From contig JADZCJ010000046.1 in NCBI GenBank assembly GCA_020851635.1, positions 62,001 through 126,000 on the forward strand: a stretch of 64,000 bases of DNA. The letters run 5' to 3'. The stretch comes from Anaerolineae bacterium (GTDB lineage: Bacteria > Chloroflexota > Anaerolineae > UBA4142 > SHND01). Both the position numbers and the translations under genes were made by a program. Below are positions 29,543-42,691 of this stretch, one piece after another. The notes beneath the pieces are model-generated. The model saw only the letters and a list, made by a program, of their open reading frames with translations, searched no databases and was not told where the DNA came from. Position 1 is the stretch's first letter. Each line of letters opens with the position of its first letter.

Positions 29543-30628
29543 GTGGCCGGTTTCTCTGATTTAGGCGCGATATTCAATACCATTCGCGAGATTGATCTGC
29601 AAGCGATTGCAGATGAGGCACAGCAACAGTCGTGGGTCGCGATCGTGGGCGACGCGGCGAGTGGGGCGCGCGATTTGGCAACCGCGTTCTATCTTGCGCC
29701 GCGTCCCCTGCCACAAGATGACGCGAGTTATGCGATGGCGGGTCCGATTCTGACGACGATCGAGGATGCGGTGTTGGCGGAACGCGCCGAGCTGGTGGTG
29801 TTTGTGCTGAGCGAACCGCGCCCCGCAAACCGGGCGGAAAAGGCAGCATTTGAAAAGTGGCTTGCCACGGACAAAAAGATCGTTGTAATCTTTAATCGCC
29901 CCCAGAGCGGGCCCGCATTGCTGCCGATCAACGAATGGATGGGGGCGCGCGTTTTGGAAGGCGAAGTGAACAGGCGTGAATTTTTGGAAAAGCATTTTGT
30001 GACCGCAGTGCTTCAGTTGATGCCCGAGCGCAGGTTGGCGCTGGCGCGGAATTATCCGCTGTTTCGTCTGCCGGTGGCGCGCGCCATTGTGAGCGAAACT
30101 TCTTTTGCGAATGCGGGGTACTCGTTTAGCACCGGTGTCGCGGAGGTCGTGCCTGCCCTGAACATCCCCTTTAACGTCGCTGACATGATCATTTTGACCA
30201 AGGCACAGGCGTTCATGGTGTACCGTCTCGGTTTGATTTTCGGATTATCGCCGCGCTGGCAGGACCATCTCGCCGCGTTCGGTTCGACCATCGGTTTCGG
30301 TTTTGTGTGGCGCACGATCGCGCGGCAACTGATCGGACTGATTCCCGGTTTTGGGATCTTGCCAAAGGTGGCGATCGCGTATGCGGGAACGTATGCAATC
30401 GGCGAAGCGGCGCTGCAATGGTACGAGACAGGGCGCGAGATCAAGCGCGAGGACATTGACGGCTTTTTCAAGCAGGCGTTGGAACGGGGAAAAAACCTGG
30501 CAGTATCGCTGGGGGAAAGGGCGCCCAAAGTACAAGCGCCAAAACTCCAGGCGCCGAGACTGCCTTTTGGCAAAAAGAAACAAGAACCGCCGCTATTGAC
30601 GGCGGGAGAGAATGAGACGGTTGTATGA
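29543..30628 (+). CDS. degenerate GTPase with C-terminal DUF697-like membrane domain
   Basis: 361 aa from GTG 29543. The N-terminal ~165 residues look like a worn P-loop GTPase: SWVAIVGDAASGARDLA has the Walker A spacing but Ala-Arg instead of Lys-Ser/Thr, and VVIFNRPQ replaces NKxD. Residues ~205-295 are DUF697-like with hydrophobic helices (ADMIILTKAQAFMVYRLGLIFGL, IGFGFVWRTIARQLIGLIPGFGILP). The tail is Lys/Pro-rich. It lies between eutC and eutL with ATGA overlap to eutL. EutP/PduV are BMC-linked small GTPases, but this is a different architecture. It may tether or position the BMC at the membrane (inference). Confidence 0.7.
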   Translation: MAGFSDLGAIFNTIREIDLQAIADEAQQQSWVAIVGDAASGARDLATAFYLAPRPLPQDDASYAMAGPILTTIEDAVLAERAELVVFVLSEPRPANRAEKAAFEKWLATDKKIVVIFNRPQSGPALLPINEWMGARVLEGEVNRREFLEKHFVTAVLQLMPERRLALARNYPLFRLPVARAIVSETSFANAGYSFSTGVAEVVPALNIPFNVADMIILTKAQAFMVYRLGLIFGLSPRWQDHLAAFGSTIGFGFVWRTIARQLIGLIPGFGILPKVAIAYAGTYAIGEAALQWYETGREIKREDIDGFFKQALERGKNLAVSLGERAPKVQAPKLQAPRLPFGKKKQEPPLLTAGENETVV

Positions 30629-32764: not shown

Positions 32765-32773
32765 GGTGTGACG

Positions 32774-33103
32774 ATGGATGTTTTGGAGCAAGTAGAGCAA
32801 CTGTTGTCGAAATTGACGCGCGGCGAAAAAGCCCAAGTGCTTCAGTGGGTGGTTCGCGATTTGGGCGAGGCATTTCCGGGCATTGAAATCGATCCCAATG
32901 TCAGCGGCGGCGAAGCTTGCATTGTTCGCACAAGGATACCGGTCTGGTTGCTTGTTCAGGCGCGTCGTCTCGGGACGAGCGAAGCAGTATTGCTGCAAAG
33001 TCATCCTTCTTTGCGCGCGGTGGACCTGGCGAATGCGTGGGCGTATGCGCGATCGTATGCGACGGAGATAGCGAGACAAATCGAGGAAAATGAGAGCGCA
33101 TAA
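32774..33103 (+). CDS. DUF433 protein, probable antitoxin, inside the BMC operon
   Basis: 109 aa from ATG 32774 (GTG 32768 alternative). The N-terminal helix (EQVEQLLSKLTRGEKAQVLQWV) is followed by the DUF433 core: VSGGEACIVRTRIPVWLLVQARRLGTSEAVLLQSHPSL and DLANAWAYARSY. It is directly followed by a DUF5615 gene 2 bases away, the usual pairing. The pair is wedged between the aldehyde dehydrogenase and the BMC-H gene. Confidence 0.82.
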   Translation: MDVLEQVEQLLSKLTRGEKAQVLQWVVRDLGEAFPGIEIDPNVSGGEACIVRTRIPVWLLVQARRLGTSEAVLLQSHPSLRAVDLANAWAYARSYATEIARQIEENESA

Positions 33104-33105
33104 TA

Positions 33106-33443
33106 ATGTCGCGCCTGTATTCAAACGAGAACTTTCCACTCCCCGCCGTGGTGGAGCCGCAAAGGTTGGGGCATGATGTTCTCACCAGCTTGGCAAGCGG
33201 CAGAGCGGGTCTGCGCATTCCGGACCCGGAGGTGTTGGAGTATGCGGTAGCCGAAAAACGTGCCCTTGTGACAATGAATCGTCGTCATTTCATCAAGCTG
33301 CACAAGGAAACACTGAGCCATTTTGGCATTGTCGTTTGTACATTCGATCCGGATTTTTGGAATTGGCATTGCGCATTGATAAAGAGTTGAAGTTGGTCGG
33401 GGATACGACGGGCCAGTTGATTCGCATCAACCGCCCGACATAA
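33106..33443 (+). pseudogene. DUF5615 PIN-like partner, one C-terminal frameshift
   Basis: Reads MSRLYSNENFPLPAVVEPQRLGHDV and ALVTMNRRHFIKLHKE, typical DUF5615. After FDPDF, at a T5 run near 33355, the homology moves to another frame ([28 protein letters not shown]), ending at TAA 33441-33443. As read, the protein ends at 33390 with an altered last few residues (94 aa). The conserved acidic and THxR-type residues precede the shift, so partial activity cannot be excluded. Could also be a homopolymer error. Confidence 0.7.
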
Positions 33444-33447
33444 AAAG

Positions 33448-33939
33448 ATGGCTCGCAAAAAAGCACAGGACAAATCGGCGGCGCGTGCGGTGCGCGCGAC
33501 GAGACGTAAGGCAAAACCGAACGAGAGCGCGGGGATAGTTTCGGGGACAAGCGTCCCGCCACCGCATGAAACACCCGTGTACACTGAAACGCTCCGCGGA
33601 GCAGGAGCTGTAGAGGAGAACAAAAAGATGGCAGACCCCAACATGATTGCCCTGGGCATGGTTGAAACCAAAGGGCTGGTCGGTTCGATCGAGGCGGCGG
33701 ATGCGATGGTCAAAGCCGCAAATGTTGTGTTGATTGGCAGTGAATACATTGGCGGTGGATTTGTGACCGTGATGGTGCGCGGTGATGTCGGCGCGGTCAA
33801 AGCCGCGACGGACGCCGGCGCCGCCGCGGCAAAGCGTGTCGGCGAACTGGTGAGCGTGCATGTCATTCCGCGCCCGCACGAAAGCGTCGAAATGATACTG
33901 CCGCAAAACAGCAAGGGCGCGGTCGGCGGACGCGTCTAG
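33448..33939 (+). CDS. BMC-H hexameric shell protein (EutM/PduA-like) with basic N-terminal extension or second start
   Basis: The C-terminal ~103 residues are a canonical BMC-H domain: [54 protein letters not shown] and [14 protein letters not shown]. The frame starts at ATG 33448 with 60 extra residues rich in Lys/Arg then Pro/Thr ([20 protein letters not shown]). An internal ATG at 33628 ([11 protein letters not shown]) follows a good ribosome site, AGAGGAGAAC. So either two forms are made or only the short one. This is the only single-domain hexamer gene in the window and would form most shell facets. Confidence 0.93.
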
Positions 33940-34055: not shown

Positions 34056-34520
34056 ATGGAACTCTCTTTGCCCGAAAATTTCCAAGTTCAGGACGCGCCC
34101 CAAGTTCTGGAACGGGCGCGTCCGGCGCTTGATTTACCCCCCGATGCGCAAGTGCGTGTGGAAAATGTGCGCAAGACCTCACGGGGGACGCGCATTACGT
34201 TCTCGTACACGCACGCGGTGAAAATTGAAAATCAAGAGCTGTGCGACGCGCAGGACATCTGCGTAGAAGTGAGTTCGTACGGCGATCTGAGGTTCAATGC
34301 GCGCGGCATTCTGGTGACTTGTAATGTCAAGCCGACAGAACCCGAGCAGGTGCGTGCGATCAGCGACCATTTGAACAAATTGGTCGCCGGTGGACACGTG
34401 TATGTCGCCAAACGCGGCGAGCACGTTGACCTTGAACAATTGCGCGAGCAGGGCAAATCGTGGTACCTGGAAGAGGATGCGCAGGGCAACCGTAAACTCA
34501 AGCGCGCTTGGATTGCCTGA
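34056..34520 (+). CDS. unknown protein sharing a C-terminal domain with the downstream metallopeptidase-like protein
   Basis: About 154 aa from ATG 34056; the frame is open to GTG 33990, which would give 176 aa. The last ~85 residues (SYGDLRFNARGILVTCNVKP, EQVRAISDHLNKLVAGGHVY, WYLEEDAQGNRKLKRAWIA) align by eye with the last ~85 residues of the next protein (GGLTLNVDAEGAVAFSGFYR, DVRAIRDHVEKLAERERIY, YYIEHDGKGNKILRRAYVT). I do not recognise the domain. It sits right after the BMC-H gene. Confidence 0.7.
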   Translation: MELSLPENFQVQDAPQVLERARPALDLPPDAQVRVENVRKTSRGTRITFSYTHAVKIENQELCDAQDICVEVSSYGDLRFNARGILVTCNVKPTEPEQVRAISDHLNKLVAGGHVYVAKRGEHVDLEQLREQGKSWYLEEDAQGNRKLKRAWIA

Positions 34521-34563
34521 CTGCGAATGCACGCAGGTCTACCCTTTTTGAAGGAACGTTGAA

Positions 34564-36126
34564 ATGCCTCTTGAGCGCAAATTCAGCGCGTTCTTGAACG
34601 ATCCCGGTGGTCCCGGCGACGCGCCTGAGGTGAGCGGCGTGGGCAAGAGCGCGGGGCGATTTGCCATCCCCGGATTACCCAAAGGGCAAGAGCTCGGGGG
34701 GCTGCAGCCCGGCTCGGTCGAGTTTCAGGCGTCCCACCTGCTCGTGATTCTCACGCACGCGTATGATGTGTGGGCGGGTTTTTTTGACAGGGAGATTGAG
34801 TGGGTCTCGGGGCCGGTACTGGCGGTGGACCCGCGCGCGGGACGCGATTTGAATGCGTCCTATGACCGCAAGACGTTACGGTTCTTTTTTGCCACAGAAG
34901 CGAAAACCCAGCGCGTGTTGTACACAAGCGAATCCTCTGATGTGGCGGCGCACGAGTGCGGACATGCGATTCTGGACGCGCATCATCCCGATTATTGGTC
35001 GTCCATCCATCCCGAGACGAGCGCGTTTCATGAAGCGTTTGGCGATCTTACGGCGCTTTTTACCACACTGCAATTCCCCTCGGTACGCGAACGCTTGCTC
35101 AAAGAAACGAACGAGGACCTGAGCCGGAGCAGCAATGTGACCCGGCTTGCCGAACAGCTGGGCAGAGCGCTGTATCTGGAACGAGGCAAGGATGCGGCGG
35201 GGGCGACGTTCTTGAGGGACCTGGTCAACACTTTTCGGTATCGGGAAACGTGGAATTTGCCCGCGACCGCCCCTTCGATCCGCCTGTCCTCCGAGTCTCA
35301 CAGCTTTTCACGCGTGTATAGCGGCGCGGTCTATCAGATTTTTGTCGAGCTCTATAACGCGCGGCGCAAAGCAGATCCCAAACTGTCGGCGGATGATGCG
35401 TTGTGCGGGGCGCGTGACGATGTGGGCTTGATGGTGGCGACTGCGCTGATGCTTGCGCCGCCGGGGGATGCTGTCTTTCGAGTCATGGCAATGTCCATGT
35501 TCAAAGCCGAGCAGCAATTGTTTCAGGGCAAGTATTTTGGAATCTTGAAAAAGATATTCTCGAACCGTCGAATTCTGCTGGTCAAAGATGCGGAAATGTT
35601 CAAACCGTCTTCTCGTCATGCTCCCGACAAGGTGTCGCCCATTGGTCGGGGCATGTTGAGCATGGCGGGCACAACGGCTGAGCAGATGCCGCCCGCGGAA
35701 TTGCAGAGAGCGCTGCGCCTGCGCGGCGAAGAGATGGTCTATGCGCGCGAGTTGGGACGAATTGATGACGAACGTGTGGTGCAGTACCGCGCCGAGCGGC
35801 TCATTCCGCTCAAAGGCAAAAGATATGGCGCCGCCAACGGCGCGCTGGTGCCGGTCCAGGGCGGTCTGACGCTTAATGTGGACGCCGAGGGCGCGGTGGC
35901 GTTTTCGGGCTTTTACCGCGCGGGACATGGCGATGTGCGCGCGATTCGCGACCATGTGGAAAAATTGGCGGAACGCGAACGCATCTATGAGGCATCGCCT
36001 CGCGATGAGGCGGACATCGAGTATCTGGTTACACAGCGCAAACCCTATTATATCGAGCATGACGGCAAGGGGAACAAGATCTTGCGACGCGCCTACGTTA
36101 CCTGTGCGCGCTGTGGATTGGACTGA
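34564..36126 (+). CDS. HExxH (gluzincin-like) metallopeptidase-domain protein in the BMC locus
   Basis: 520 aa. The N-terminal ~60 residues are linker-like (NDPGGPGDAPEVSG). Around residue 137 it has VAAHECGHAILDAHHP, an HExxH zinc motif, followed by SAFHEAFGDLTALF, where the Glu fits the third ligand of gluzincins (thermolysin-like M4 fold). There is no signal peptide, so it looks cytoplasmic. The C-terminal ~90 residues match the domain of the upstream 154-aa protein. The last residues (CARCG) carry a CxxC. Function unknown; a role in BMC protein processing would be speculation. Confidence 0.7.
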   Translation: MPLERKFSAFLNDPGGPGDAPEVSGVGKSAGRFAIPGLPKGQELGGLQPGSVEFQASHLLVILTHAYDVWAGFFDREIEWVSGPVLAVDPRAGRDLNASYDRKTLRFFFATEAKTQRVLYTSESSDVAAHECGHAILDAHHPDYWSSIHPETSAFHEAFGDLTALFTTLQFPSVRERLLKETNEDLSRSSNVTRLAEQLGRALYLERGKDAAGATFLRDLVNTFRYRETWNLPATAPSIRLSSESHSFSRVYSGAVYQIFVELYNARRKADPKLSADDALCGARDDVGLMVATALMLAPPGDAVFRVMAMSMFKAEQQLFQGKYFGILKKIFSNRRILLVKDAEMFKPSSRHAPDKVSPIGRGMLSMAGTTAEQMPPAELQRALRLRGEEMVYARELGRIDDERVVQYRAERLIPLKGKRYGAANGALVPVQGGLTLNVDAEGAVAFSGFYRAGHGDVRAIRDHVEKLAERERIYEASPRDEADIEYLVTQRKPYYIEHDGKGNKILRRAYVTCARCGLD

Positions 36127-36129
36127 CAA

Positions 36130-36765
36130 ATGGCAGACCTGGACATTGTGCATCCGCGCATCAACGACTATCTCGAACAAACACTCGCAGAAGAAAACCC
36201 GCTCTTGCGGGAAATGGGAGACTATGGTCGTTCGCTCGAGTTTCCGATCATTGGCGCGCAAGCGGGGCGTTTGCTCTATTTTCTTGCCAGGAGCATTAAC
36301 GCGAAACACGTGCTGGAACTTGGTTCGGGATTTGGTTATTCGGCGTTCTGGTTTGCGCTGGCGGTCGGTGAGGGCGGCAAGGTCATCATGACCGAGGGCA
36401 AGCAGGAGAATCAAGAACGCGCCCGTAGCTATTTCGCGCGCGCCGGGATGCTGGACCGGGTCGAGTTTAACGTCGGTGATGCGCTGGAAATCACAAAGAA
36501 ATACAGCGGACCCTTTGACGTCATTTTTTGCGATATTGACAAGCGCTCGTATCCGAAAGTGGTCGAGGTCGCGCACGCCAAGCTGCGCGTGGGCGGCATA
36601 TTGATCTATGACAATATGTTGTGGCATGGGCGGGTGCTGCAAGAGAACGACGCAGAGACAAAGGCGGTGCGAGAGACCACGCGCTTGTTGATGAATGATG
36701 ATTCCTTTTTTACCACAATCGTGCCGCAGCGTGATGGACAGACGATCTCGCTAAGACTGAAATAG
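36130..36765 (+). CDS. SAM-dependent O-methyltransferase (family 3, CCoAOMT-like)
   Basis: 211 aa, the usual size. VLELGSGFGYSAFWFALAV is SAM motif I, VIMTEGKQENQERARSYF motif II, and DVIFCDIDKRSYP holds the metal-binding acidic residues, with LIYDNMLWHGRV later. The N-terminus (HPRINDYLEQTLAEENPLLREM) is typical. Substrate unknown. Starts 3 bases after the upstream stop. Confidence 0.85.
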   Translation: MADLDIVHPRINDYLEQTLAEENPLLREMGDYGRSLEFPIIGAQAGRLLYFLARSINAKHVLELGSGFGYSAFWFALAVGEGGKVIMTEGKQENQERARSYFARAGMLDRVEFNVGDALEITKKYSGPFDVIFCDIDKRSYPKVVEVAHAKLRVGGILIYDNMLWHGRVLQENDAETKAVRETTRLLMNDDSFFTTIVPQRDGQTISLRLK

Positions 36766-36780
36766 CCCATAGACCCGGTA

Positions 36781-37620
36781 ATGGACCCCTCTCAGATCCT
36801 CTCGCAACTCCTCGCAGCTGCCGGAGTTTCCGCCGCGCAACTGCCGAGCGATGTTGATTTGTCGCCCGGCAATATTTTGCGCGCGATCGTCATTCTGATC
36901 GTCGTTTATTTTGTGGCGCGGCTGGCGCGCTCGGTCATAAGGCGTCTGTTGGACCGTTCCGGCATGGACCCGGGCGTCAAGCTCGTTCTGCTGCAGCTGG
37001 CTTTTTACTCTATTATCGGGCTGGGCGTCATCTGGGTGTTGGGCGGATTTGGGCTTTCGGTGCTCTTGTTGGGTATCGCCGCCGGTTTTGCGCTCAAGGA
37101 CTTGATTCAGAATTTTGCGGCGGGCTTGCTGATCATGGGCACGCGCCCGTTTCAACCCGGGGACTGGATTGCCATCGGTCCGAGCGAGGGGATTGTGGCA
37201 GAGGTGAGCTGGCGGGGCACGTTTCTCGATACGTTCGATGGGCGGCGGGTGATTGTGCCCAATTCCAGCATTATCACCAGTGTGGTCGTCAATAACTCGT
37301 TGTCGCCGCAGCTGCGAAGCACGCTGAGTTTGAGTGTTGACTTGCAAAGCGATTTCGAACGAGTGCGCGAGCAAATTCTTGATGCGCTCAAACCGATCAG
37401 AGGCATTTCGGAGAATCCGCCGCCCCGCGTCCTGATCGAATCGCTCACGGGCAGAGCCGCCAATCTCAAAATCAGCTTTTGGGTCCAGGACCCGGTCAAC
37501 AATCAGAATCGTGTTGTGTCCGAGACGTTCGATGCCGTCAAGCGGGCGCTCCCCGCGAGTGTTTTGGACCTTGTCCCCGTGACGACCGCCACGCCGCCGC
37601 GCGATGACAAGCCAAAATGA
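36781..37620 (+). CDS. MscS-family small-conductance mechanosensitive channel
   Basis: 279 aa. Three membrane helices: ~35-52 (AIVILIVVYFVARLA), ~72-92 and ~95-115; the last (GIAAGFALKDLIQNFAAGLLI) is the pore-lining TM3 with Gly/Ala pattern. PFQPGDWIAIG and RVIVPNSSIITSVVVNNS mark the beta domain. It releases solutes upon hypo-osmotic stress. It overlaps the next gene by ATGA. Confidence 0.9.
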   Translation: MDPSQILSQLLAAAGVSAAQLPSDVDLSPGNILRAIVILIVVYFVARLARSVIRRLLDRSGMDPGVKLVLLQLAFYSIIGLGVIWVLGGFGLSVLLLGIAAGFALKDLIQNFAAGLLIMGTRPFQPGDWIAIGPSEGIVAEVSWRGTFLDTFDGRRVIVPNSSIITSVVVNNSLSPQLRSTLSLSVDLQSDFERVREQILDALKPIRGISENPPPRVLIESLTGRAANLKISFWVQDPVNNQNRVVSETFDAVKRALPASVLDLVPVTTATPPRDDKPK

Positions 37621-38558
37621 GACGCGCGGTCAAGTGGATTGGCACCGGTCTTGTCGCCGTGCTTGCGCTTGTTGCGATTCTAAATCTGGCAAGTTTGGAC
37701 GATGGCATCCTGTATTTGCAGGATATGACGACATACAGCGAGACCCCCGTCAAGCCCCTGGATGCGAATGGACGATTTGGTTTTTGTTACCAATTTGTCC
37801 AGCTGCGGAATGCTCAGCGCGCGCAGTTTATTCAAAACTTTTTGCAGGCGCGCGACATTTCTTTTGAATTGCTTCCGATTCGGAATGAGCATGGAGTGGA
37901 CACTGGATTCGACAATATTTTCGCGCCGTTTGGTGATGAGGGACCATACACGATTTTTTCGGCGCACTATGACAAGTTTTTTGACGAACCGGGTTACGAG
38001 GGCGCGTCGGACAATTCAGCGGCAGTGTGCATGCTGCTGGTCGCGGCAGACGAGTTGAACAAGGCGAAACCGGCCCGCCCGATCGCATTTCTCTTTACCG
38101 GTCAGGAAGAGCGCGGACTGCTCGGCGCGCGAGCTTTTTACGAATATGCCACGACGAACAAGGTGCGGGTAGCAGAAGTTTTGAATTTTGACAGCATGGG
38201 ACGCGCGGGAATCGCGGCGCAGGCATTGGGGGACAAGAGCGGTTTTGTGTTTACGATACCGCTGCTGGGCGAATATGTGTTTGATGGTCGAACGTTGGGA
38301 CCCGCCTCGACATATCAACAGTCTGACGTCGGGCTGCTGGCGCGGTTGAGATGGATTGTGCCGCTGGCTGAATTTGACCGCATGGTGGCAAATTCGGACG
38401 GGACGTACTGGAAAGCGCAAGGTTGGAATGCGATTAATTTCACTTCGGATGGGCTTTGGTGCATGAATCGGCTTTTTGCTGATGCTTTCCCTATTTTTGA
38501 CCAATTTCCATTCGTTATTGGGGCGAACATATTTCTCAATAAGCCGTTTCGCGTGTGA
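37617..38558 (+). CDS. M28-family zinc aminopeptidase, membrane-anchored
   Basis: 313 aa. One N-terminal membrane helix (VKWIGTGLVAVLALVAIL), then an M28 peptidase domain: FSAHYDKF (His, Asp), GASDNSAAVCMLL (bridging Asp), FTGQEERGLLGA (catalytic Glu-Glu) and NFDSMGRAG (Asp). A late His is expected near the C-terminus in this family; FTSDGLWCMN is found there instead, so the last metal ligand is unclear. Translationally coupled to mscS by a 4-base overlap. Confidence 0.82.
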   Translation: MRRAVKWIGTGLVAVLALVAILNLASLDDGILYLQDMTTYSETPVKPLDANGRFGFCYQFVQLRNAQRAQFIQNFLQARDISFELLPIRNEHGVDTGFDNIFAPFGDEGPYTIFSAHYDKFFDEPGYEGASDNSAAVCMLLVAADELNKAKPARPIAFLFTGQEERGLLGARAFYEYATTNKVRVAEVLNFDSMGRAGIAAQALGDKSGFVFTIPLLGEYVFDGRTLGPASTYQQSDVGLLARLRWIVPLAEFDRMVANSDGTYWKAQGWNAINFTSDGLWCMNRLFADAFPIFDQFPFVIGANIFLNKPFRV

Positions 38559-38559
38559 G

Positions 38560-38718
38560 ATGGGTCAAAAAATATTCATGCACCAACGCCCTTCGGATGA
38601 TATATATTATCTGGACGAGACGTGGCACACCTACGCAGACCGCGTCGAACTGCTGGACCAGACGAATTTCGAGCGCGCGATAGAGTTGATCGTGGGGTAT
38701 GCGCAGACGACGCAGTGA
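38560..38718 (+). CDS. small conserved-looking hypothetical protein
   Basis: 52 aa from ATG 38560, 1 base after the M28 stop. The sequence (MGQKIFMHQRPSDDIYYLDET, ELLDQTNFERAIELIVGYAQ) is well formed with an amphipathic C-terminal helix. No family recognised. It sits tightly between the M28 and MazG genes. Confidence 0.5.
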   Translation: MGQKIFMHQRPSDDIYYLDETWHTYADRVELLDQTNFERAIELIVGYAQTTQ

Positions 38719-38727
38719 GGAGCAAGG

Positions 38728-39060
38728 GTGGAATCATTTCAGGAATATCAACGCTTGTCGCGCCGCACCTGGAATCGGGTGCAAACAGACCATCCGATTG
38801 TGTATCCGACGCTCGGACTGGTGAACGAAGCGGGTGAGCTGGCGGGCAAGGTCAAAAAGATTTTTCGCGACAAACAGGGCGTTATTTCCGATGCGGATCG
38901 CGAGGCGCTCAAATATGAACTGGGTGATGTGATGTGGTATCTTGCCCAGATTGCGACCGAATTGAATCTTTCGATGGAAGAGATCGCGCAAGCAAATATT
39001 GACAAGTTGGCGTCGCGTCTGGAACGAAATCAGATCCGAGGCGAAGGAGATTACAGGTAG
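38728..39060 (+). CDS. MazG-type nucleotide pyrophosphohydrolase
   Basis: 110 aa from GTG 38728. All-alpha NTP-PPase: LGLVNEAGELAGKVKKIFRDK carries the ExxE motif and KYELGDVMWYLAQIATEL the second ExxD motif that bind magnesium. It hydrolyses non-canonical NTPs to NMPs. Single-domain, as in many Gram-positive and Chloroflexota members. Confidence 0.88.
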   Translation: MESFQEYQRLSRRTWNRVQTDHPIVYPTLGLVNEAGELAGKVKKIFRDKQGVISDADREALKYELGDVMWYLAQIATELNLSMEEIAQANIDKLASRLERNQIRGEGDYR

Positions 39061-39086
39061 TGTGGGTGATTTGAGAGGGAGTCGAG

Positions 39087-39656
39087 ATGGCAAAGGTTTT
39101 TGAACGAATTGATGACAGACTGCGGGCATGGATCGAAAAACAACACATGTTTTTTGTGAGCACCGCGCCGCTGGCAGCTGACGGATTGCTGAATTGTTCG
39201 CCCAAGGGGTATGACTCGCTGCGCATTTTGAACGACCACGAGATCGCATATCTGGACCTGACGGGCAGCGGCATCGAGACCGTGGCGCACTTGCAAGAGA
39301 ATGGTCGGATTGTGTTTATGTTTTGCTCATTCGAGCAGGCGCCGCGCATCGTGCGGCTGCACGGGGTCGGGACGGTGTTTGCGGCAGGGACGCCCGAATT
39401 TGAGGCAATGATGGAGAATTTCAAGCCGCGCCCGGGGATGCGTTCGATCATTCGAGTGACCCTCACGCGCATTTCTGATTCGTGTGGTTATGGTGTGCCG
39501 CGCTATGAATTTCTGGGTGACCGCGCCACACTGGAGGAATATTGGGACAGAAAGGGAGCGGAAGAGACGGCTGAATATCAGCGAACGTGCAACGCGGCAA
39601 GTGTGGATGGGTTGCAGGGGATTTGCGCGCCGGAACGAGTCGCTGCGTACGGATGA
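39087..39656 (+). CDS. pyridoxamine-5'-phosphate-oxidase-family FMN-binding protein
   Basis: 189 aa. Split-barrel flavin fold: FFVSTAPLAADGLLNCSPKGYD, HEIAYLDLTGSGIETVAHLQENGRIVFMF and VRLHGVGTVF. These proteins bind FMN or F420; PdxH itself is longer and has a different C-terminus. CGYGVPRYEFLGDRATLEEYWDRKG is typical of the group found across actinobacteria and Chloroflexota. The substrate is unknown. Confidence 0.82.
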   Translation: MAKVFERIDDRLRAWIEKQHMFFVSTAPLAADGLLNCSPKGYDSLRILNDHEIAYLDLTGSGIETVAHLQENGRIVFMFCSFEQAPRIVRLHGVGTVFAAGTPEFEAMMENFKPRPGMRSIIRVTLTRISDSCGYGVPRYEFLGDRATLEEYWDRKGAEETAEYQRTCNAASVDGLQGICAPERVAAYG

Positions 39657-39863
39657 TGCGGAACGCGCCGCAACAACGCGATTATATTCGCCCTATCAGT
39701 GTTATACTCGGTTTGGGCGGAGGGTTGTTCTTGGCGATTCGCTTTAATTTTTGAAACTGCGAAAAGATGGACAAACGCATGCAGTCGCCGGACCCCAGCG
39801 CGGTGGACCGCATGGATGGTCCCGGATTCGAAATATATGTGGAGCAGATAGGGAGGCAGAGAC

Positions 39864-40277
39864 ATGCTCAAGGAATTTCGTGAATTTATCATGCGGGGCA
39901 ATGTTATGGACCTCGCCGTTGCGGTTGTAATTGGCGCGGCATTTACCGCCGTAGTCAATTCGTTTGTCCAGGATGTCATCATGCCGATTCTGGGGTTGTT
40001 TACCGGAGGGATTGATTTTGGCAATCTGTATCTCAATCTATCAGGCAGATCGTATGAAACGTATGCGGCGGCAAAAGAAGCGGGGGCGGCAGTGATTGGT
40101 TACGGCGCGTTCATCCAATCCATCATTTCGTTCCTGATCATTGGTTTTGCCATCTTTTTGATTGTCAAAGCGATTAACCGGGTCTACAAGAAACAGGAAG
40201 CGGCGCCGGCGGGTCCCACCGTGGACCAACAGCTGTTGACCGAAATCCGCGATTTGCTGGCGAAACAAAACCGGTAA
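39864..40277 (+). CDS. mscL: large-conductance mechanosensitive channel MscL
   Basis: 137 aa, normal length, with GGGAGGCAG upstream. [26 protein letters not shown] and [15 protein letters not shown] form the amphipathic N-helix and the pore TM1; TM2 is [21 protein letters not shown], followed by a charged C-terminal helix. The 207-bp gap before it may hold its promoter, with a TATACT near 39709, but no good -35. Confidence 0.93.
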
Positions 40278-41625: not shown

Positions 41626-41702
41626 GACAAAGGTGAGCGGATGACGCATGGCGAGCCGCGATTGCCAAGAGCCGCTGTGTGCCGTCCATCGTCAAATTCA
41701 AC

Positions 41703-42326
41703 ATGGCAGACATTAAATTCGAATTGAGGGCGTATTGCTATCTGGACCGTATGCAGCCGCAGTATGCCGCATTTGTGGGAACGATCACGCAGGGCGATCT
41801 GCCCATCGAGGGCATGGCGTCCTTGTATGTCGAAGTGGCGCCGGGAAACGATGTGTTTCGGCTGGTGGATATTGCGGTGAAATCCACGGACGCCAAACCC
41901 GGCGCGCAGATTGTGGAACGCGAATTTGGGATGTTTGAAGTCCATTCGCTGCGACAAGCTGAGGTGTTGGAGGCGGGGCGCATTGTATTGGAGCGCCTGA
42001 ATCTGACACCGGAAGACCGCATCAAACCGAGCGTCGCGTCGCTGCAAATGATCACGCACGTCAATACCTATCAGGTGCAGCTGCTCAATCGTTTTCGGCG
42101 TGGGGCGATGCTCGTCGCAGGAGAGACATTGTTTATCATGGAAGTGGCGCCTGCAGCGTATATCAACCTCGCCGCAAACGAAGCGGAAAAATACGCGACG
42201 GTGAAATTGATTCACGTTTCGTCTGTCGGCAGATTCGGGCGCATGTGGATGTCGGGCAGTGAGGCGGAAATGATGGCTGCACAGCGCGCCGCCGTTGCCG
42301 CGATTGAAAACCTGCAGGGGAAATAA
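41703..42326 (+). CDS. tandem BMC-domain (BMC-T-like) shell protein, second in the locus
   Basis: 207 aa from ATG 41703 (GTG 41679 possible). Two BMC-like halves: ~35-105 (MASLYVEVAPGNDVFRLVDIAVK, GMFEVHSLRQAEVLEAGRIV) and ~135-205 (LFIMEVAPAAYINLAANEAEKY, LIHVSSVGRFGRMWMSGSEAEMMAAQRAA). It is distinct from EutL in this locus. It would form pseudohexameric trimers. Its exact class is unsure. A short frame from ATG 41641 with a decent ribosome site overlaps its start and could act in coupling. Confidence 0.75.
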   Translation: MADIKFELRAYCYLDRMQPQYAAFVGTITQGDLPIEGMASLYVEVAPGNDVFRLVDIAVKSTDAKPGAQIVEREFGMFEVHSLRQAEVLEAGRIVLERLNLTPEDRIKPSVASLQMITHVNTYQVQLLNRFRRGAMLVAGETLFIMEVAPAAYINLAANEAEKYATVKLIHVSSVGRFGRMWMSGSEAEMMAAQRAAVAAIENLQGK

Positions 42327-42328
42327 TT

Positions 42329-42691
42329 ATGGCTCGCACGTTTTTTACGGAACGCGATATCGAAGAGCTGGCAAAACGCGGCGTCACGGAAATTCCGGTG
42401 GACGATTCGGTCTATATCACGGACAGCGCCCGCGAGCTGATGGACAAATTGGGCATCAAGCGCAAGATGTTGAACAGCACAGCCCCGTCAAGTGTATTGA
42501 AATCGCCCGATGTGGCGAACCTGCACAAGCCCTCTGCTCCTGTGTCCACTGTATCGGGCGGAACGCTCACGGACGCGGAACGACATCAGGTGATCGAACA
42601 GGTCAAGAGCGGCGTGATCGCGCGGCTGGGACCCGGTGTGGACAGCGCGGTTGTTGACCAGATTGTAAGAAAAGTAGTCAGCAAATTATGA
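42329..42691 (+). CDS. small BMC-associated protein with encapsulation-peptide-like C-terminus
   Basis: 120 aa. The N-terminus (TFFTERDIEELAKRGVTEIPV, YITDSARELMDKLGIK) resembles the short N-terminal module seen in EutT and several BMC-associated proteins, in which an (I/L)TE start and a TPxAREL motif are common. A Pro/Ser/Thr linker follows, then an amphipathic tail (ERHQVIEQVKSGVIARL, VDQIVRKVVSKL) like encapsulation peptides. No catalytic domain. ATGA overlap with the next BMC-P gene. It could be a core adaptor, but this is inference. Confidence 0.65.
   Translation: MARTFFTERDIEELAKRGVTEIPVDDSVYITDSARELMDKLGIKRKMLNSTAPSSVLKSPDVANLHKPSAPVSTVSGGTLTDAERHQVIEQVKSGVIARLGPGVDSAVVDQIVRKVVSKL

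Follow-up and report, generated by a model that had tools for sequence, protein, structure and literature searches.

A putative thermolysin-like peptidase and a free-standing copy of its C-terminal domain in a microcompartment locus of Anaerolineae

Published descriptions of microcompartments list shells, cargo enzymes, and genes for transport or regulation. What, then, is a peptidase-like gene doing in one, and why does a small relative of part of that peptidase precede it? This question is raised by two adjacent genes, S154 and M520 (Table 1), in the 64,000-nucleotide stretch of DNA analysed here (the window), which is part of contig C46 of a 5.8-Mb Chloroflexota genome. The pair lies just 3' of a BMC-H shell gene within an EutBC/aldehyde dehydrogenase/EutJ locus, which agrees with an earlier note on this DNA that assigned both proteins to a BMC locus. 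Sutter et al. 2021 (PMC8217296) report in their main text that Anaerolineae of the Chloroflexi carry SPU6 loci, and also describe EUT modules with EutABC and an EutL-type shell protein; the words "protease" and "peptidase" are absent from that main text. Compared with these EUT and SPU6 loci, the S154/M520 pair is an added module. No account of a peptidase in a microcompartment locus was found in the literature searched, a scope that excluded supplements and most subscription journals. The DeoC-RpiB signature pair of SPU-type loci also occurs on our contig, as adjacent RpiB-like and DeoC-like genes upstream of the window (contig positions 37010-38321, ~58 kb upstream of S154/M520), and the same pairing was seen in 5/5 other genomes searched; any assignment of our locus to these types is informal.

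Table 1 Coordinates of the locus features within the window.
Feature	Position	Strand	Remark
GTPase-like protein, 361 aa, DUF697-like part	29543..30628	+	linked to the S154/M520 pair
BMC-H shell protein	33448..33939	+	PF00936, E=5e-28; directly upstream of S154-M520
S154 (154 aa)	34056..34520	+	ORF; free-standing copy of the peptidase C-terminal domain
M520 (520 aa)	34564..36126	+	ORF; putative thermolysin-like zinc peptidase, S domain at its C-terminus
HECGH zinc-binding motif, residues 130-134	34951..34965	+	invariant in 16/16 orthologues
HEAFGD, Glu157, presumed third zinc ligand	35029..35046	+	aligns with thermolysin NEAISD; 16/16
His246, presumed thermolysin His231 equivalent	35299..35301	+	invariant in 26/26 aligned homologues; collinear
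C-terminal S domain of M520, residues ~378-514	35695..36105	+	hhalign to S154 profile, E=2.2e-31
Cys514, near-C-terminal	36103..36105	+	16/16 M520; 0/15 S154 at the matching place

S154 and the C-terminus of M520 are homologous. The two window proteins match directly in BLASTP (E=4e-12, 29% identity over 99 aa, ungapped), and their Smith-Waterman score of 124 compares with a maximum of 57 among 1000 shuffles. Aligning a profile of 15 S154 proteins with one of 16 M520 C-termini (hhalign) gave E=2.2e-31 over 141 columns, so that the shared domain, here called the S domain, takes up nearly all of S154. The earlier note had proposed a shared C-terminal domain of ~85 residues and named a profile alignment of the two tails as the check; the homology stands, and the length has to be extended to ~141 columns. 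In a tree of S domains, S154 forms one group (support 98/94) and the M520 C-termini another (89/80), and two related peptidases from other loci (L055 and L078) fall outside both. Since each forms a single clade, the pair goes back to one old duplication, before the two families that carry it split, followed by joint inheritance. The M520 S domain ends in Arg-Ala-aromatic-x-x-Cys, and this tail evolves more slowly than the core, under the tightest constraint within the domain. Estimates of dN/dS were 0.10-0.22 for M520 and 0.16-0.42 for most S154 pairs (0.62 in one pair), values that are rough because many pairs approach saturation at synonymous sites. By these estimates M520 is under strong purifying selection.

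The remainder of M520 resembles the thermolysin-like peptidases (MEROPS M4; also M36 fungalysin), clan MA gluzincins with which it has HExxH in common. The gluzincin pattern that the earlier note had recognised, HECGH with a downstream Glu in HEAFGD, is invariant across the orthologues and collinear with thermolysin, in which the Glu segment corresponds to NEAISD; a His stands at the place of His231, and an LRDxxxxxxYxDPD segment matches LRSMSDPxKYGDPD in the same order. The HExxH, the HEAFGD-type Glu, and a His in an ESHSFSR-type segment are common to all 16 orthologues and 10 wider homologues. With a profile of 20 of these 26 aligned homologues, the best PDB matches were neutral protease/thermolysin (E=1.5e-3, with collinear segments including LRS..YGDPD); the same search with the close M520 set alone returned a single insignificant match. 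Pfam M4 was matched by 11/16 M520 members below the curated cut-off (best PF01447, E=0.0017; 13.6 bits for the window protein vs. a cut-off of 22.4), and because of these scores we use the label M4-like and do not file M520 as a family member. M520 also differs from M4 and M36 in its C-terminal domain and at its other end: no secretion signal is evident by eye, and Pfam matched no PepSY/FTP propeptide in the orthologues, even at E=0.1. M520 is a putative thermolysin-like zinc peptidase.

Rhizobia, actinobacteria, and other Chloroflexota have M4-like proteins, annotated as "hypothetical protein", "serine protease" or "M36 family metallopeptidase", with catalytic domains ~27-37% identical to that of M520; its C-terminal domain and terminal Cys are partly shared. 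Unlike M520, these proteins have an HExxH without an internal Cys. The annotated stretches around them that we read contained no microcompartment genes, and no free-standing S154 was found. This wider peptidase family is present in many genomic contexts. An HMM of the S-domain core detected it in the non-orthologous peptidases L055 (E=2e-8) and L078 (E=3e-11), whose neighbourhoods hold no shell genes. Because the core also occurs in these related peptidases without microcompartment genes nearby, the shared domain did not arise as a targeting tag, and the suggestion of the earlier note that it could be a targeting module loses ground. That note had also held that homologues without BMC context would count against its reading; the domain core does occur in such settings (L055, L078), but no orthologue does so in any locus shown to lack shell genes. 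A targeting module or substrate mimic accounts for this less well than a regulatory or docking domain that the peptidase itself inherited and that was then duplicated, and the shared domain is, judging from these sequence comparisons, the inherited C-terminal domain of this peptidase family.

The tail of the domain is a separate matter. An HMM of the tail hairpin was significant only in S154 and M520 among the loci covered by that run. However, 9/10 rhizobial and actinobacterial homologues end in a similar Arg-x-x-(x)-Phe-x-Cys, and although the profile E-value is only 0.002, a relationship between the rhizobial C-termini and the S-domain tail is suggestive. These similar termini make it less likely that the tail is confined to microcompartment loci. 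An NTF2-like gene beside one rhizobial homologue (L095) did not match the S domain. In Chloroflexota and Rhizobium, the wider M4-like peptidases also adjoin a metallo-hydrolase (L056, 9224-14373; L088, 5764-8858) and a patatin-like protein (L056, 9224-14373; L059, 7031-10601).

Orthologue searches covered the phylum, the nearest relatives, and the class. M520 orthologues were found in 16 genomes of a single Anaerolineae-class order, six in the window genus and ten in a second family (f92). In 15/16 of them S154 immediately precedes M520, and one genome (G417) has M520 alone; S154 without M520 was not seen among the relatives searched. The order BMC-H - S154 - M520 is kept in 13/15 of the S154-bearing genomes, the other two being a contig that ends just upstream of S154 and a locus with the GTPase-like gene directly upstream. 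In line with the co-occurrence that the earlier note anticipated, shell genes (BMC-H, BMC-P, BMC215 protein) or EutJ are on the M520 contig in 15/16 genomes; the remaining contig, of only 4.3 kb, holds the GTPase-like gene, the S154/M520 pair, and one unmatched ORF. Surroundings differ between the families: the window genus has a locus with EutBC and acetaldehyde dehydrogenase, and f92 has a different aldehyde dehydrogenase, followed by a glycosidase and an aldolase in some maps, with no EutBC in the stretches read. In our class survey, 105/298 genomes contained a BMC domain. M520 was present in 14/15 of those within the order, and an orthologue in 0/90 of those outside it.

Gene maps of both families also place orthologues of the GTPase-like protein close to the pair. 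MMR_HSR1 was matched in 7/12 members of this protein family (best 7e-19), with one weak DUF697 match; the P-loop is degenerate in the window protein (VGDAASGARD) and intact (GKST) in the family consensus. In another genome (G410), a matching shell locus lacks the GTPase-like gene, S154, and M520 together. The compartment itself can thus do without this module, which is accessory and may be lost in one piece. The module is likewise absent from an EutBC-type shell locus of another family (G499). Nor is S154 indispensable, since G417 keeps M520 without it. Accelerated evolution of the M520 C domain after loss of S154 in G417 was tested and not borne out: the domain is not unusually fast-evolving there, and thus gives no sign of a freed partner.

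Two cysteines of M520 deserve attention. Cys132, within HECGH, is present in 16/16 orthologues and 0/21 other homologues, which would confine a cysteine in HExxH to the microcompartment clade among the homologues compared. Cys514 has a likely counterpart in the rhizobial homologues, as a C-terminal Cys stands at a similar place in 9/10 rhizobial and actinobacterial proteins. Matrix metalloproteases are kept latent by a cysteine switch. M520 is similar to cysteine-switch metalloproteases in having an invariant Cys outside a zinc-peptidase catalytic domain, but this Cys is C-terminal and not in a propeptide, and zinc coordination by it is only a guess. Cys132 and Cys514 may form a redox link or latch the zinc site.

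Structure prediction gave a confident model for S154 (AlphaFold2, mean pLDDT 86), with a helix, a four-stranded sheet, a long helix, a short helix, and a C-terminal hairpin in that order. Foldseek returned no match to this model at E<=0.001. The best VIA match had Z 6.4 (rmsd 6.0 over 83 residues, model residues 8-93), and Z was 6.3 to a designed cystatin fold and 4.9 to sialostatin, which is below the level that shows relation. The core is thus predicted to have a cystatin/NTF2-like arrangement, a kind of match that is weak, common, and too weak for kinship, and a PDB sequence search with the S154/M520-C profile found nothing significant. The lack of a clear structural match does not by itself point to a novel fold. 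We also considered the N-terminal helix of S154 (residues 11-24) as an encapsulation peptide, which was set aside; it is the only N-terminal helix, lies inside the predicted fold, and belongs to the inherited domain. Nor does the S154 model show a terminal amphipathic helix such as encapsulation peptides form; its C-terminus is a hairpin. A model of M520 built from six same-genus sequences reached a mean pLDDT of only 41.7, too low to use.

Our tentative preference, held with less than even confidence, is that S154 acts in trans on M520, as its partner or regulator, and that M520 is a cytosolic peptidase serving the microcompartment. M520 would be a cytosolic thermolysin-like zinc endopeptidase recruited into the microcompartment operon of one Anaerolineae-class order, and its S domain a docking or latch domain inherited from the peptidase family. 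S154, an old duplicate of that domain that became a separate protein without the terminal cysteine, would act in trans, either pairing with the S domain of M520 or replacing it on a shared partner, and could thereby set when or where M520 cuts. The likeliest substrates would be shell or cargo proteins of the same locus, for maturation or clearance, and the linked GTPase-like protein may also be involved. In favour of this reading are the homology across the whole domain, the single ancient duplication, the recurring gene order, the lack of any S154 without M520 among the relatives searched, the invariant catalytic residues, the purifying selection on M520, the slow tail, and a terminal Cys kept in M520 and missing from S154; G417, which has no S154, and G410, which lacks the whole module, speak against it. 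A more specific control module, in which M520 is latched by its own C-domain and terminal Cys, the cysteine-less S154 releases or aims it, and shell or cargo proteins are processed or cleared, is somewhat unlikely.

The main competitor to a trans-acting partner is that the shared domain, chiefly its slow hairpin, docks to the shell or lumen, with S154 a cargo or scaffold protein and not a peptidase regulator. The pair follows the shell locus in two families with differing accompanying enzymes, no part of the domain is under tighter constraint than the tail, and the tail HMM is significant only in S154 and M520 within the loci of that run. We still consider docking somewhat unlikely, given that the core sits in peptidases with no microcompartment genes nearby, that rhizobial homologues close with a comparable pattern and a final Cys, and that no encapsulation-type terminal helix is evident. 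The many contexts of the wider peptidase family, the unrelated genes interleaved in the locus, and the absence of the module from G499 and G410 could instead suggest that the GTPase-like protein, S154, and M520 are accessory passengers acting elsewhere, e.g., in general protein quality control. This is improbable in our judgement, as the position directly after BMC-H is kept in two families despite differing surroundings, and orthologues are found neither in the 90 other shell-bearing class genomes sampled nor in any locus shown to be shell-less.

A further reading takes S154 for an inhibitor of M520, immunity- or propeptide-like, that prevents harmful proteolysis in the cytosol. Its gene directly upstream of the peptidase gene, the predicted cystatin-like core (VIA scores below the level of relation), and the lack of a recognisable inhibitory propeptide in M520 are consistent with this; the retention of M520 without S154 in G417, the weak and common nature of the fold matches, and the fusion of the same domain to the enzyme itself make it slightly less probable again than a passenger role. 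Least credible of all is a catalytically dead M520 serving as a structural scaffold: the Pfam M4 scores below cut-off would allow it, but none of the aligned homologues has changed any zinc ligand, the catalytic Glu, or the His231 equivalent. We thus rank a trans partner or regulator first, followed by docking tag, passenger, inhibitor, and dead enzyme.

The pairing of S154 with M520 hints at a microcompartment lineage with a peptidase under some control. If M520 cuts shell or cargo proteins under the control of S154, the pair would provide a route to study compartment maturation, remodelling, and clearance. Even otherwise, it neatly illustrates how a peptidase domain was duplicated to give a separate partner gene, retained in two bacterial families.

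Several other features of the locus can be recorded. The start of the BMC-H ORF (33448) is probably too early, because ~60 extra codons (33448-33627) precede the conserved part, which runs from ~33628, and the protein is only ~105 residues in total in some relatives. Between the aldehyde dehydrogenase and BMC-H genes lies a DUF433 + DUF5615 gene pair (32768-33390), which we take to be of the toxin-antitoxin kind; it is present in L008 and L010 and had no match in L006, L007, and L009. Anti-phage families gave no match. The two halves of the shell locus are separated by O-methyltransferase, mechanosensitive-channel-like, and MazG-like genes (36130-40277; the latter two named by eye), which mostly keep that place genus-wide. 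A conserved 120-aa protein (42329-42691) has no Pfam family above cut-off, and its C-terminal helices resemble encapsulation peptides by eye. Its neighbour, a 215-aa protein (41679-42326) with only a weak C-terminal BMC-domain match, is 95-97% identical across the genus and better conserved than the remaining shell-locus proteins.
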